Below are positions 13,963 through 19,424 of a stretch of 64,000 bases of DNA, one piece after another. The position numbers and the translations under genes are program-made. The stretch's first letter is position 1. Each line of letters begins with the position of its first letter. The notes under the pieces are model-generated. The model saw only the letters and a program-made list of their open reading frames with translations. It did not search any database and had not been told where the DNA came from. The DNA comes from Gammaproteobacteria bacterium (GTDB taxonomy: Bacteria > Pseudomonadota > Gammaproteobacteria > SZUA-152), in the NCBI GenBank assembly GCA_021647705.1, contig JAKIUF010000022.1:1-64000 (forward strand), written 5' to 3'.

Positions 13963-16707
13963 ATGAAAGCAAACAAACAACTGATTCTCGTCGATGGCTC
14001 GTCATATTTGTATCGCGCCTTTCACGCCATGCCCTCATTAAGCAATTCCCAGGGCCAACCCACAGGTGCGGTATATGGTGTTGTCAATATGCTGCGCCGC
14101 TTGCTGAAAGATTTTCAGCCGGAATATATGGCGATGGTATTTGACGCCAAGGGCAAGACCTTCCGTGATGATCTTTATGCTGAATACAAGGCTAATCGTC
14201 CTCCTATGCCGGATGAGTTGCGTGAACAAATTGCCCCGTTGCATGCCATTGTTGAGGCTATGGGGTTGCCGATGTTGATTGTGGACGGTGTGGAGGCGGA
14301 CGACGTGATCGGCACTCTCGCCAGACAAGCTACAGAGATGGGGATGGATTGTCTGGTGTCCACGGGCGACAAGGATATGGCACAGCTGGTCAATCAGCAT
14401 GTCACGCTGATGAACACGATGGATAATTCCACATTGGACCCGCAAGGCGTGGTGGATAAGTTTGGTATTCCGCCAGAGCGCATTGTGGACTACCTCACGT
14501 TGATGGGCGACAGCGTGGACAATATTCCCGGTGTGCCCAAGGTCGGTCCCAAAACCGCAGTGAAGTGGCTGACCCAGTACGGCACATTGGATGACATCAT
14601 CGCCAGAGCGGGTGAAATTACGGGCAAAGTAGGGGAGAACCTGCGCGATGCGCTGGAACAATTACCGCTGTCCCATCAGTTGGCCACCATCAAATGTGAT
14701 GTGCCGCTGGATGCAGGGCCGACTGAGCTTAAAGTGCAGGCGGCGGATACAGAGCGCCTGACACAGTTATTTGCTGAGATGGAATTTAAAACCTGGTTGT
14801 CTGAGTTGTTGCCAGGCAAACCCGGACAGAGTGCAGATAATCATTCTTCACAGGTAACAACAGATGAAAAGGGTATGTCAGCGGCCGATGTGAATTACGA
14901 CATCGTGTTAGACGAATCGGCTTTTGAGGCTTGGTTGAAAAAGCTTCAGCAAGCCGAACTGTTTGCTTTTGATACGGAGACCACCAGCCTTGATTACATG
15001 CAGGCAAAAATCGTCGGTGTGTCGTTTGCGGTAAAAGCAGGAGAGGCAGCCTACGTACCGGTGGCTCACCAGATTACCCTGGAGGATGCCGATGCCAGCG
15101 CACAGTTGGGCCGTGATTTTGTATTAGAGAAATTACGTCCGTTGCTGGAAGATGCGAGCAAGGCCAAGGTCGGCCAAAACCTCAAATATGACATGAGCGT
15201 GCTGGCCAATCACGGTATTACCCTGCGTGGTGTGGCTTTCGATACCATGCTGGAGTCCTATGTGCTGGACAGCACTGCTACGCGCCACGATATGGACTCA
15301 TTGGCGCTCAAATATCTTAACCGCAACACTATTCATTTTGAAGACGTGGCCGGTAAGGGCGCTAAACAAATCACTTTTGATCAGGTGTCTATTAGTGTTG
15401 CTGGTCCATATGCCGCAGAAGATGCGGATGTAACCTTACAATTGCATCAGACATTGTGGCCTCAGCTGGGAAAGGAGCCCCGACTCGTCGAACTGTTTCG
15501 GGACATTGAATTACCCTTGCTGACCGTGCTCTCGCACATTGAACGCAACGGTGTGTTGATTGATGCCAATATGTTGGCGAAACAGAGTGAAGAGCTGGCA
15601 CAGCGCATGCTGGAGATTCAAAACGAGTCTTATGAGGTGGCGGGCGAAGAATTTAATCTTGCCTCGCCTAAACAGATTCAAAAAATTCTTTTTGAGAAAC
15701 AGGGCTTGCCAGTACGGAAAAAAACCCCAAAAGGTGCGCCATCTACTGCTGAAGAAGTGTTAGCGGAACTGGCTCATGATTTTCCATTACCCAAACTGAT
15801 TCTTGAATACCGGGGCATGAGTAAACTGAAGTCCACATATACCGACAAACTGCCGCAACGCATTGATCCTGGCACAAAGCGGGTGCATACCTCGTATCAT
15901 CAGGCCGTGGCCAGCACTGGACGGTTGTCATCATCCGAGCCCAATCTGCAAAATATTCCGGTACGCAGTGCCGAGGGACGACGCATTCGTCAGGCTTTTA
16001 TCGCACCAGCCGGTTTCAGCGTGCTGGCGGCTGACTATTCGCAGATAGAGTTGCGCATCATGGCACACCTTTCCGGTGATGAAGGTTTGCTCAAGGCTTT
16101 TGCGGCGGGGGAGGATATTCATCGCGCCACTGCTGCTGAGGTGTTTGCTGTGCCGTTGAAAGAGGTGGATAACGAGCAGCGGCGCAGTGCCAAGGCCATC
16201 AACTTCGGGTTAATTTATGGCATGTCAGCTTTTGGGCTGGCACGACAACTGGACATTACGCGTGGCGATGCCCAGGAATATGTTGATCTTTATTTTGAAC
16301 GTTATCCCGGCGTGAAAAAATTTATGGATGATACCCGCGAACAGGCGCATGAGCAGGGTTATGTGGAGACGGTGTTGGGTCGTCGTTTGTATCTGCCAGA
16401 TATCAATCACCGTAACGGTCAGCGTCGTCAATATGCTGAACGCACGGCCATTAATGCACCCATGCAGGGTACAGCTGCGGACATTATTAAACGCGCGATG
16501 ATTGTGGTGGATAATTGGATTGAATCTGCCGGGCTGGATATCAAGTTGATCATGCAGGTGCATGATGAGTTGGTATTTGAAATTCGGGATGAACACATTG
16601 AGGCCGCAAAAATTGAAATCAACCGGTTAATGACCGGAGCGGCTGAACTCAAGGTGCCGTTAGTCGTGGATATAGGCATAGGCAGCAACTGGGATGAAGC
16701 GCATTAG
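13963..16707 (+). CDS. polA: DNA polymerase I
   Basis: A 914-residue enzyme for gap filling and Okazaki-fragment maturation. Three domains appear in order. The 5' nuclease (about residues 1-290) has VFDAKGKTFRDDLYAEYKAN, DGVEADDVIGTLA and STGDKDMAQLV. The 3'-5' exonuclease begins with FDTETTSLDYM near residue 335, so proofreading residues are kept. The polymerase has motif A DYSQIELRIMAHLSGD near 690, motif B RRSAKAINFGLIYGMSAFGL near 740, and motif C QVHDELVFE near 864. The length is normal. The ATG at 13963 fits the family start (KQLILVDGSSYLYRAFHA). Downstream is a mobile-like repeat and then the sRNA candidate. Confidence 0.97.
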   Translation: MKANKQLILVDGSSYLYRAFHAMPSLSNSQGQPTGAVYGVVNMLRRLLKDFQPEYMAMVFDAKGKTFRDDLYAEYKANRPPMPDELREQIAPLHAIVEAMGLPMLIVDGVEADDVIGTLARQATEMGMDCLVSTGDKDMAQLVNQHVTLMNTMDNSTLDPQGVVDKFGIPPERIVDYLTLMGDSVDNIPGVPKVGPKTAVKWLTQYGTLDDIIARAGEITGKVGENLRDALEQLPLSHQLATIKCDVPLDAGPTELKVQAADTERLTQLFAEMEFKTWLSELLPGKPGQSADNHSSQVTTDEKGMSAADVNYDIVLDESAFEAWLKKLQQAELFAFDTETTSLDYMQAKIVGVSFAVKAGEAAYVPVAHQITLEDADASAQLGRDFVLEKLRPLLEDASKAKVGQNLKYDMSVLANHGITLRGVAFDTMLESYVLDSTATRHDMDSLALKYLNRNTIHFEDVAGKGAKQITFDQVSISVAGPYAAEDADVTLQLHQTLWPQLGKEPRLVELFRDIELPLLTVLSHIERNGVLIDANMLAKQSEELAQRMLEIQNESYEVAGEEFNLASPKQIQKILFEKQGLPVRKKTPKGAPSTAEEVLAELAHDFPLPKLILEYRGMSKLKSTYTDKLPQRIDPGTKRVHTSYHQAVASTGRLSSSEPNLQNIPVRSAEGRRIRQAFIAPAGFSVLAADYSQIELRIMAHLSGDEGLLKAFAAGEDIHRATAAEVFAVPLKEVDNEQRRSAKAINFGLIYGMSAFGLARQLDITRGDAQEYVDLYFERYPGVKKFMDDTREQAHEQGYVETVLGRRLYLPDINHRNGQRRQYAERTAINAPMQGTAADIIKRAMIVVDNWIESAGLDIKLIMQVHDELVFEIRDEHIEAAKIEINRLMTGAAELKVPLVVDIGIGSNWDEAH

Positions 16708-16730: not shown

Positions 16731-17315
16731 TGTGAATTAAGGGCTAACTCCCCCCCTGTTTTCATGCATATGCTGGCTGGACCTGGCTAATGAAAACCCA
16801 ACGCAAAGGCGCAAAGAGGCAGAGAACGCAGAGAGATTCACAGTATTGGAGATTCAGGTGTTTGCGAGAACCTGCGTGCAAATAAAACTAAAATCTCAAT
16901 CGCTCCGGATATATATCTTTGGCCCGTTGTCCTCTTAACCCTTCCTGATTACCCATGAAGCTCAGCCATAAAGCAGAAAATCTAACATCAACAAATTCAA
17001 TTAGTTATAAATAAATTTTCGAATACTTAACTTCATTATGACGAAAAACCCTCAATATGCGTCCTATTTCCACAATACTTTGCAACTCTGTCGAGTGAGA
17101 TTTACGTATTTATTGAGGTTACGAGGTTACGAGGTTACGCTGAGCTTAGGTTGGCTGCGTTTCATGGGTAATCAGGTAACCCTTTGCGCTCTCTGCGTCT
17201 TCGCGCCTTTGCGTTAGATTTTATGACGCTGTGATTCGGAGCGAGGAAACAACCTGTTCCACTGAATGTAAACCAATGATGTTATCGGTTGAATATTTTT
17301 AGTGCTTAATTCACA
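16731..17315 (+). repeat. MITE-like element (family D, long copy)
   Basis: The element is bounded by TGTGAATTAAGGGCT (16731-16745) and AGTGCTTAATTCACA (17301-17315), which are inverted repeats matching at 13 of 15 positions. Inside lies a second inverted pair of about 30 bases, AACGCAAAGGCGCAAAGAGG near 16799 and its complement ending GCCTTTGCGTTAGATTTTAT near 17222, and three direct GAGGTTAC units at 17115-17138. A shorter, inverted relative lies at 37646-37905. I find no transposase or long frame, so it would need help in trans to move. No clear target duplication is visible. It fills most of the polA-sRNA gap. Confidence 0.7.
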
Positions 17316-17350: not shown

Positions 17351-17377
17351 CAACTTTTTATGATCCTGCTCGTCTTA
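17351..17377 (+). promoter_or_regulatory. Possible sigma-E/AlgU-type promoter of the sRNA candidate
   Basis: CAACTT (17351-17356) and TCTTA (17373-17377) are 16 bases apart. The extracytoplasmic stress sigma factor RpoE/AlgU prefers GAACTT-N16/17-TCTGA, so the match is 5/6 and 4/5. A start would fall near 17383, just before the first hairpin. A TATGAT at 17359-17364 could be a sigma-70 -10 box, but no well-spaced -35 accompanies it. Confidence 0.4.
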
Positions 17378-17383
17378 GTGTAT

Positions 17384-17505
17384 GAGCAGGCGCGATGCCT
17401 GCTCCCCGCTTCCCTCCCTAGCGGGTTTAAGCCTGGCGTCCCCAACGTCGGGTGCTTTTAGCCCCGGAGGCTGTCCCGATGATCGGGTGCCACCGGGGAT
17501 TTTTT
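17384..17505 (+). ncRNA. Candidate small RNA at the Spot 42/ErsA locus (polA-engB)
   Basis: A 120-base stretch folds into successive hairpins: GAGCAGGC/GCCTGCTC (17384-17391/17397-17404), then CCCGC/GCGGG (17405-17409/17421-17425) exposing the pyrimidine-rich loop TTCCCTCCCTA, a linker with GTCCCCAACG, and a strong intrinsic terminator. In Escherichia coli spf (Spot 42) and in Pseudomonas ersA occupy this same gap between polA and engB; that is established knowledge and the positional argument here. A C/U-rich loop suits pairing with purine-rich ribosome-binding sites. I cannot claim primary-sequence homology. It is on the plus strand, opposite engB, and no protein frame is evident. Confidence 0.6.
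17462..17505 (+). terminator. Rho-independent terminator of the sRNA candidate
   Basis: CCCCGG (17462-17467) pairs with CCGGGG (17493-17498), enclosing GGC/GCC and CCCGA/TCGGG pairs, and is followed by ATTTTTT. There is no T run on the minus side, so the terminator points in the plus direction and cannot serve engB. The nearest plus-strand gene is polA, 750 bases upstream, which implies a separate transcript. Confidence 0.85.
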
Positions 17506-17509
17506 ATTG

Positions 17510-18169
17510 TCATCTTTTATCATCAAAGTCCAGCCAACGATCCAGCACAGCATAGGTTTCGGTTAATCCTGTGCCTTTGAGTGCGGAAAATAATTGTACA
17601 CTGCACAGATCGTCAGGCGCATGCGCCGTGAGTTCCCGCTGTACCTGCATCAGGGTATTTTGCGCTGCGCCGCGTTTAAGTTTGTCCGCTTTGGTCAGCA
17701 GCACATGTACGGGCATGCCCACCTGCCAGCACCAGTCTAGTAGCTGTTGATCCACTTCTTTGAGTGGGTGGCGCACATCCATGAGCAAAATCAGTCCGCG
17801 TAGCGATTGGCGCTCGGAAAGATACGCTTCCATGGTCTGCTGCCAGCGACGTTTGATTTCTTCGGCCACTTTGGCGTAACCGTAACCGGGTAAATCCACC
17901 AGATGGCGTTGTCCATCCAATTGAAAAAGATTAATCAGTTGGGTGCGCCCTGGTGTTTTACTGGTTCGGGCTAGCGATTTTTGTTCACATAAGCGGTTGA
18001 TTGCACTAGATTTTCCTGCATTTGAGCGGCCTGCGAAAGCGACCTCAGGGCCACACTCTTGTGGCAGTTGGTTGAGCCGGGCAGCGCTGATAACGAAGCT
18101 GGCGATGCGATAACGGATGGCTGGATTTGCTTTTTGAAAGTTAGGAGAGGTCACGGTGTATTTGTCCAA
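17510..18169 (-). CDS. engB: Ribosome biogenesis GTPase EngB (YihA/YsxC)
   Basis: A 219-residue circularly conserved TRAFAC-class GTPase that helps assemble the large ribosomal subunit. The P-loop GRSNAGKSS is near residue 47. The G2/G3 region [11 protein letters not shown] leads into [10 protein letters not shown], and TKADK is the G4 specificity motif. The length is typical. The start is uncertain: the longest frame uses TTG at 18169, with a GTG at 18154 as the alternative, and neither has a clear ribosome-binding site. It is on the opposite strand to polA with the sRNA candidate between them, a conserved gammaproteobacterial arrangement. Confidence 0.92.
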
Positions 18170-18305
18170 ATTGGAGAATGTGTCGCCAAGTGCCTAAAAT
18201 CTATTGGCATTTTTGTGCTAGCTGCAATAGTCTAGGTTGCTGGTATGTCAGGCACGGAACGCTGGAACGGGACTTTATCAAACGCAAACTCGTATGGGAA
18301 CGCTG

Positions 18306-18686
18306 ATGGCCACAAGTACAACCAATACAACTACAATCACACACGTTAGATACACGAGCATTAAAAGGCGTGTGTTTACGCTGATGACCAGTCTGGCTAT
18401 GAGTATTATTATCGCGCCAACGGGAATCAGCAATGCATATGCGGTAGGCAGCGTGAAGGAGGGAGGTGTCAAGGCGCGGGCTTGTCAGGTCTGTCATGGT
18501 AAGGGTGGAAAAAGCACTAAAGAAGCCTATCCTATTCTGGCCGGGCAACATGCAGCTTACCTTCGCAAGCAATTACAGGCTTTTCGGACAGGTGCCCGTA
18601 AAGACCCCATTATGAATGGCATGGCAATCGAGCTTAGTGATCAGGATATCGAAGATCTGGCTGCTTTTTTTAGCAGTATCGAATAA
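18306..18686 (+). CDS. Monohaem c-type cytochrome (cytochrome c4/c5-like)
   Basis: A periplasmic cytochrome with one haem site, ACQVCHGKGG, and an axial methionine in DPIMNGMAIEL, the arrangement of a single cytochrome c4 half. The C-terminus DQDIEDLAAFFSSIE is also c4-like. The N-terminus is threonine-rich and precedes the hydrophobic segment LAMSIIIAPTGISNAYA, so the true start may be later than 18306 (for example 18384), leaving a normal signal peptide. It is followed 93 bases later by a dihaem cytochrome c4 on the same strand. Probably an electron carrier to a terminal oxidase. Confidence 0.8.
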   Translation: MATSTTNTTTITHVRYTSIKRRVFTLMTSLAMSIIIAPTGISNAYAVGSVKEGGVKARACQVCHGKGGKSTKEAYPILAGQHAAYLRKQLQAFRTGARKDPIMNGMAIELSDQDIEDLAAFFSSIE

Positions 18687-18779
18687 CTCGCCGACTAGGT
18701 CTTGCTGCTGGTGTGTCGAGTATAACAAGCTACACTTAGGCTTTTTAAGGAAACTCTCTTAACTTCGGAGACCTGCAAC

Positions 18780-19424
18780 ATGATGTCGCTGCGCTTTGTT
18801 TTTTGCCTATTGATTAGTATACCGATACATACTTATTCTTCAGAAGCACCAAATGAACGGGCCGACGGTAATGCCAGCGAGGGGCAGGTTAAATCAGCCG
18901 CCTGTCAGGGTTGTCATGGCTCGGATGGCAACAGTTTCAGTCCGGACTGGCCTAATCTTGCCAGCCAGAATGCCAATTATTTGTCCAGGCAAATTCGTGA
19001 TTTTCAGTCGGGAGCCCGCCAGGATCCTGCGATGCAGAGCATAGTGATAGGGCTGGTTGAGCAGGACATCATGGATATTGCGGCCTATTTCGCGGCACAA
19101 AAAGTGAAGGTCGATGCTTCTTCAAACTCTGCGGCAGGTAGAAAACTTTATATGGGTGGCAATCGTTACACGCATCTGCCCGCTTGTGCCGGTTGCCACG
19201 GACCCAACGGGGTGGGCAATGGGCCGGGAGTGATCCCCAGCCTTGTGGGCCAAAAACCCGGTTATGTGATTAAGACTCTGCGGGATTTTAAAACCGGGAC
19301 GCGCAGCAATGACCGCAATCAGATCATGCAGGACATCGCAGCAAAAATGACAGAGAAGGAAATGGAAGCGGTGGCGCAGTTTCTCGCCGGTATGGGGGCT
19401 GAGGCACCCGATACCGACGAGTAG
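18780..19424 (+). CDS. Dihaem cytochrome c4
   Basis: A 214-residue periplasmic protein made of two homologous cytochrome domains. The signal peptide is SLRFVFCLLISIPIHTYS. Haem sites are ACQGCHGSDGN near residue 41 and ACAGCHGPNGVG near residue 139, each with a downstream methionine (QDPAMQSIVIGL; NQIMQDIAAKM). GGAG lies about 8 bases before the ATG. Cytochrome c4 passes electrons to cbb3 or other oxidases and is commonly found beside engB/polA/dsbA in gammaproteobacteria. It ends 16 bases before the convergent cyclic-nucleotide-binding gene. There is no visible terminator between them. Confidence 0.93.
   Translation: MMSLRFVFCLLISIPIHTYSSEAPNERADGNASEGQVKSAACQGCHGSDGNSFSPDWPNLASQNANYLSRQIRDFQSGARQDPAMQSIVIGLVEQDIMDIAAYFAAQKVKVDASSNSAAGRKLYMGGNRYTHLPACAGCHGPNGVGNGPGVIPSLVGQKPGYVIKTLRDFKTGTRSNDRNQIMQDIAAKMTEKEMEAVAQFLAGMGAEAPDTDE

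Follow-up and report, generated by a model that had tools for sequence, protein, structure and literature searches.

A predicted small RNA gene between polA and engB with a sigma-E/AlgU-type promoter, and its apparent relatives in Gamma- and Betaproteobacteria

The sRNA gene and its conservation among close relatives

The window (the whole 64,000-nt stretch of DNA that was analysed) carries polA and, convergent to it, engB/yihA, and between them on the plus strand lie a sigma-E/AlgU-type promoter, a predicted small RNA (sRNA) of three hairpins and an intrinsic terminator (Table 1). No protein gene is evident on the plus strand of this gap.

Table 1. Coordinates of the genes and RNA features at the polA-engB locus of the window
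Feature	Position	Strand	Details
polA (DNA polymerase I)	13963..16707	+	upstream neighbour of the sRNA
promoter, sigma-E/AlgU-type	17351..17377	+	CAACTT 17351-17356, N16, TCTTA 17373-17377; GTCTTA from 17372
predicted sRNA, ~124 nt	17382..17505	+	5' end deduced from promoter position (+/- 3 nt)
hairpin 1	17384..17404	+	GAGCAGGC / GCCTGCTC; sequence variable across the sRNA family, hairpin retained
hairpin 2	17405..17425	+	loop UCCCUCCCU 17411-17419; proposed main seed, anti-Shine-Dalgarno-like
hairpin 3	17431..17453	+	loop CCCCA 17440-17444; proposed second seed
intrinsic terminator	17462..17505	+	stem CCCCGG 17462-17467 / CCGGGG 17493-17498; T6 17500-17505
engB/yihA (ribosome-biogenesis GTPase)	17510..18169	-	convergent neighbour; start codon uncertain

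The sequence from just past the promoter (17378-17508) folds at -63.7 kcal/mol (z -4.5), which none of 200 dinucleotide shuffles equalled, and the stretch that includes the promoter (17351-17510) reaches -65.3 kcal/mol with z -3.8, likewise unmatched by any of 200 shuffles. For 17378-17508 the minimum free energy structure is identical to the centroid structure and consists of the three hairpins and the terminator. The loop of hairpin 2 is unpaired with a probability of 1.0 and that of hairpin 3 is also unpaired, as computed by accessibility; these two loops, downstream of polA, are the C-rich ones, while the terminator loop is not C-rich. A simple terminator scan of the window did not list the terminator at 17462-17505 because its branched arm is longer than the loop limit of the scan.

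The promoter lies ~640 nt and the predicted sRNA start ~675 nt past the polA stop, while the whole polA-to-engB gap spans only 226-291 nt in most loci of the same GTDB family. The long distance in the window is due to an intervening stretch (16793-17222) that holds an imperfect inverted repeat (41 nt, 85%, arms 348 nt apart) and, nested in it, a 25-nt inverted repeat. Since the gap is much shorter in most family loci, this stretch looks like a MITE-like insertion.

The GTDB family comprised 24 genomes, which were also all those searched of the order, and the sRNA was found in 23. In an alignment of ten family members that was not fitted to structure, all three helices were retained and five pairs carried two-sided changes (two in hairpin 2 and three in hairpin 3), a number reached by none of 500 shuffles. 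The outer stem of the terminator was 98-99% paired in this alignment and in the wide alignment described below. The promoter was also kept: AACT and the downstream TC were invariant in all 19 aligned family loci, with a spacer of N16 in 18 of them and N17 in one. An RpoE/AlgU orthologue, scoring well above the curated cut-off, and Hfq are both encoded in the genome. Among 20 sampled family loci, 16 had no Rfam match at curated cut-offs and the other four matched RF02837 (anti-hemB).

A preliminary description of this DNA had proposed a structured plus-strand sRNA at the polA-engB locus, composed of three hairpins and a strong terminator where no plus-strand protein gene ends, and transcribed from CAACTT-N16-TCTTA with a start just before hairpin 1. 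The fold, the covarying stems and the content of the gap agree with that proposal and its coordinates were right; the promoter reads as described, and comparison of the gap among relatives, suggested there as a check, found hairpins and promoter kept across the family loci. The terminator placed "750 bases past polA" exists as well, with the distance now given as ~675 nt from the polA stop to the predicted RNA start. Two further suggestions of that description, possible targets among respiratory or envelope genes and a sulfur oxidiser as host, gained no such support.

Distribution and locus arrangements across the class

A covariance model built from the ten family members (R1), which carries no positional information, was applied to an even sample of 369 genomes of the class. 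Matches came from 130 genomes, representing 101 of 271 genera and 76 families; on the window R1 scored 119.6 bits at 17404-17505, the window sequence being one of the ten from which it was built. Most of the matches were at the same kind of place: 120 of the 145 match loci examined adjoin polA and/or engB. polA was found at 88 class loci, in 84 of them upstream of the sRNA and in the same orientation, and engB at 107, in 101 of them downstream and converging on it. A search of named genomes with a DNA pattern yielded 80 loci, 73 of them matching R1; among the seven others, six came from other phyla and the last, from a Rhodoferax MAG, was recovered by a wider model (R2), which scores 83.5 bits on the window (itself among the sequences building R2).

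In the wide alignment, which was fitted to the model and is therefore biased towards the structure, 19 of 21 pairs showed two-sided changes. CUCCC was present in the loop region of hairpin 2 in 113 of 127 matches outside the window's own family, a motif that the model itself favours. Hairpin 1 has no conserved sequence, yet it is nearly always a hairpin: among 124 members with a recognisable promoter, its mean z was -2.8 against mononucleotide shuffles, and 90% were below -1. As read from the aligned sequences, the pattern of this sRNA family is one of varying stems and constant loops.

The promoter also recurs widely. The strict pattern AACT-N17/18-TCNNA was found upstream of 126 of the 210 wide-set members versus 0.6% of random stretches, an approximately hundredfold enrichment with nearly fixed spacing and with a -10 sequence of mostly GTCATA or GTCTTA; it was missing in ~40% of the set. 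The wider polA/engB-locus C-loop sRNA family, as defined in this analysis, comprises a promoter (AACT-N17/18-TC), hairpin 1, hairpin 2 with a CUCCC loop, hairpin 3, a CCCCGG terminator and polA, engB or hemB as neighbour, and the window RNA has all of these traits.

The neighbouring genes follow three arrangements: i) polA, sRNA, engB in gammaproteobacteria; ii) hemB (divergent), sRNA, engB in the betaproteobacteria Azoarcus, Aromatoleum, Dechloromonas, Nitrosospira, Thiobacillus, Accumulibacter and others; iii) hemB, sRNA, hemJ in Ramlibacter, Rhodoferax, Caenimonas and other Comamonadaceae. The identities of hemB and hemJ at these loci were assigned from their sequences. The polA-engB/yihA gap holds Spot 42 in E. 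coli and ErsA in Pseudomonadaceae, in agreement with the preliminary description. The ErsA loci came from a family-wide polA query of Pseudomonadaceae; in one genus of that family, polA was not adjacent to engB in the loci queried via engB.

Several further features of these loci were observed. Tandem sRNA copies, two to five per locus, occur in three genomes (G193 at L082/L383, G300 at L175 and G284 at L189) and at seven other loci, resembling sibling sRNAs. Four sRNA loci without engB or polA have, by eye, cytochrome c and ResB-like genes as neighbours, and neighbours of the same kind lie beyond engB in the window (18237-19424). A betaproteobacterial-type hemB-sRNA-engB locus is present in a MAG record titled Klebsiella pneumoniae (CAMDRJ010000108.1); that species name is probably wrong.

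Relation to anti-hemB, sX13, ErsA and Spot 42

At curated cut-offs the window had no match in Rfam. Below them, anti-hemB (RF02837) aligned end to end (model positions 1-81) with 17403-17507 at 35.4 bits (E 2e-6), under its gathering cut-off of 49.5. The two RNAs share, in the same order, a UCUCCUCCCUG-loop hairpin, a second hairpin and a CCCCGG terminator; they differ in that anti-hemB neighbours hemB whereas the window RNA sits between polA and engB. This difference is bridged by the hemB-sRNA-engB and hemB-sRNA-hemJ arrangements, which link the window RNA to anti-hemB, and the Rfam name is explained by the betaproteobacterial copies adjoining hemB. Moreover, RF02837 members above the cut-off occupy polA-engB gaps in other genomes, and over the same 369 genomes the coordinates of this model were often those of R1. 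Weak RF02837 matches were taken cautiously, because the model also responds in four control genomes, E. coli among them. In Burkholderia cenocepacia, anti-hemB/ncS04 has been described solely as an expressed RNA of 105 nt with no assigned function (PMC5688073).

The sX13 RNA of Xanthomonadaceae (RF02232; 115 nt) also lies downstream of polA and is built of three stem-loops with apical C-rich loops, with which it down-regulates, independently of Hfq, mRNAs that carry G-rich motifs close to their start; it was reported to be constitutively expressed (PMC3771888). The position downstream of polA is common to sX13 and the window RNA, in which hairpins 2 and 3 have C-rich loops but the terminator does not; sX13 was compared here through the RF02232 model and its published description. 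In a 62-kb scan of chosen family loci, every RF02232 match fell on a family RNA. In G193, R2 matches four tandem copies at 61-70 bits: one of the copies scored 48.3 bits with RF02232 (cut-off 50), and another scored 37.1 bits with the ErsA model (RF01719). Overall, members of the sRNA family other than the window RNA reached 31-48 bits with RF02232 versus the cut-off of 50, and across the sRNA family the scores of both RF01719 and RF02232 stayed below curated cut-offs.

ErsA (Pseudomon-1), which is transcribed by AlgU/sigma-22 (PMC8395346) as the preliminary description had stated, shares with the window RNA the polA-engB gap, a CCCCGC..CCCUAGCGG element, a CCCCG terminator and a promoter sequence of the AlgU/sigma-E type (GAACTT-N17-GTC in ErsA). 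ErsA differs in a 34-nt U-rich single-stranded domain, by which it binds the anr mRNA (PMC8575079); the window RNA is without this domain and has hairpins throughout. Although RF01719 scores up to 134 bits in the Pseudomonadaceae polA-engB gap, neither it nor RF02232 gave a match on the window at E values up to 10. A blind scan of the class with RF01719 matched 24 genomes besides the Pseudomonas-like one, and in 17 of them the match was at the R1 site; among the remaining seven, three adjoin engB or polA and four lie elsewhere, looking like plain terminators. In the reverse direction, R2 ranked ErsA first in all 21 Pseudomonadaceae loci (15-32 bits versus at most 15.3 bits for anything else). 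ErsA therefore looks homologous to the window RNA beyond synteny, and the earlier suggestion that this RNA corresponds to ErsA by position and has a sigma-E/AlgU-type promoter is strengthened, an RpoE/AlgU orthologue also being encoded. The covariance search with the Spot 42 and ErsA families that had been proposed alongside it was productive in part: the ErsA model picked family loci blind, while the window itself matched neither the ErsA nor the Spot 42 model.

For Spot 42 (RF00021), significant homology was found in neither direction, whether by Rfam on the window, by RF00021 over the class (where the window's own genome had no match) or by R1 and R2 on the E. coli spf locus (at most 12.6 bits, E 0.57). 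Within the 5 kb of E. coli DNA spanning polA and yihA, R2 scored highest on Spot 42 itself (L323, 3434-3506), though not significantly, and one weak RF00021 match in another genome was not beside polA or engB. Spot 42 of Enterobacterales and Vibrionaceae resembles the window RNA in its polA-yihA/engB position, length (~109 nt) and terminator; membership of Spot 42 was nevertheless rejected, as no match was found in either direction and the position alone is common. Spot 42 is not known to use a sigma-E promoter. It is repressed by cAMP-CRP, according to the title of a work cited in PMC3295665. The sX13 paper names two further sRNAs of the polA locus, Spot 42 and ar7 of alphaproteobacteria, without settling how they are related (PMC3771888).

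More distant resemblances were also recorded. The alphaproteobacterial ar14 (RF02344) and RF02278 weakly match family copies (L383 1092-1194, L066 1495-1606 and L189 2944-2999), the RF02278 trace being a single weak match on a tandem copy in L189. The sRNA family may have a still wider range, since ar7 sRNAs occupy the polA locus in alphaproteobacteria (PMC3771888). S17 of Bordetella and the toxic small RNAs of Betaproteobacteria (RF02278) share CU-rich unpaired regions, which in them are complementary to ribosome-binding sites (PMC11722255, PMC5688073); they differ from the window RNA in locus and architecture.

Alternative readings, proposed action and meaning

That the RNA is only the terminator or 3' UTR of polA, or is processed from the polA transcript without a promoter of its own, is very improbable. 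It does lie on the same strand downstream of polA and ends in a terminator, and hairpin 2 follows the end of polA by only ~100 nt in most family loci; yet a spaced promoter stands between polA and the RNA in the window, well apart from the polA stop, and in 18 of 19 family loci (the stretch of the remaining one is without polA), and the RNA persists in the absence of polA beside hemB and engB or hemB and hemJ. A coding function, as in E. coli Spot 42 which carries spfP, would fit an ATG-initiated ORF starting at 17382, and we consider it the remotest of the readings: none of the three reading frames is conserved in relatives, which show stops and length changes not divisible by three, while base pairs covary. 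A cis-antisense RNA to engB was rejected, as the two do not overlap (17505 versus 17510), their distance varies and engB is replaceable.

The strongest doubt about family membership is convergence, since GC-rich C-loop hairpins and terminators may arise more than once. On such a reading this would be a true sRNA of the locus, unrelated by descent to ErsA and sX13, with C-rich-loop hairpins that arose independently at the same place. GC-rich terminators and C-rich loops are common in sRNAs and can inflate scores of the RF01719, RF02232 and RF02837 kind, the cross-model scores are under curated cut-offs, and the U-rich domain of ErsA is missing. Against this stand the shared place, promoter type, spacing, CCCCGC..CCCUAGCGG element and terminator. 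Convergence is further disfavoured because tandem copies in one genome bridge the models, matching those of sX13 and ErsA side by side, and because blind ErsA-model matches coincide with R1 sites. We therefore judge independent origin improbable, if less so than derivation from polA.

Thus 17382-17505 is probably an sRNA gene in its own right and a divergent representative of an old polA/engB-locus sRNA family of proteobacteria that appears to include ErsA (RF01719), sX13 (RF02232) and anti-hemB/ncS04 (RF02837), presumably RpoE-induced and acting by loop-based repression. Judged by the models, its relatives are spread across Gamma- and Betaproteobacteria. Anti-hemB and sX13, absent from the preliminary description, appear to be its closer relatives. 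Assigning the window RNA to ErsA, sX13, anti-hemB or Spot 42 is not warranted, because this RNA fails each curated score and is without the U-rich domain of ErsA. We consider it possible, if somewhat doubtful, that the common ancestor of Gamma- and Betaproteobacteria had one RpoE-controlled C-loop sRNA beside polA/engB, of which ErsA, sX13, anti-hemB and the window RNA would be direct descendants, and that Spot 42 arose in a lineage by loss of the sigma-E promoter and C-rich loops during rewiring to CRP and carbon metabolism.

By analogy with sX13 and ErsA, and given that the loops vary least, the RNA would be induced by stress and mask ribosome-binding sites. RpoE/AlgU would transcribe it on envelope stress and the terminator would end it; the CU-rich loops UCCCUCCCU and CCCCA would base-pair with several mRNAs at G-rich Shine-Dalgarno or start-site regions and prevent their translation, as sX13 does in Xanthomonas (PMC3771888), and Hfq may be dispensable, as for sX13.

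The family link of ErsA, sX13 and anti-hemB appears to be unreported: no Rfam clan is shown for RF01719, RF02232 or RF02837, and no publication linking the three was found in the literature searched. sX13 is a virulence regulator in Xanthomonas, and ErsA is a regulator of biofilm and anaerobiosis in Pseudomonas. Together with anti-hemB/ncS04, these separately studied sRNAs look like local variants of a single old envelope-stress RNA. In 2013 the sX13 paper asked whether polA-locus sRNAs exist in other bacteria and whether structurally related ones act alike (PMC3771888). That question now gets a concrete, testable answer, with a proposed seed, UCCCUCCCU, that can be tested across many genera.
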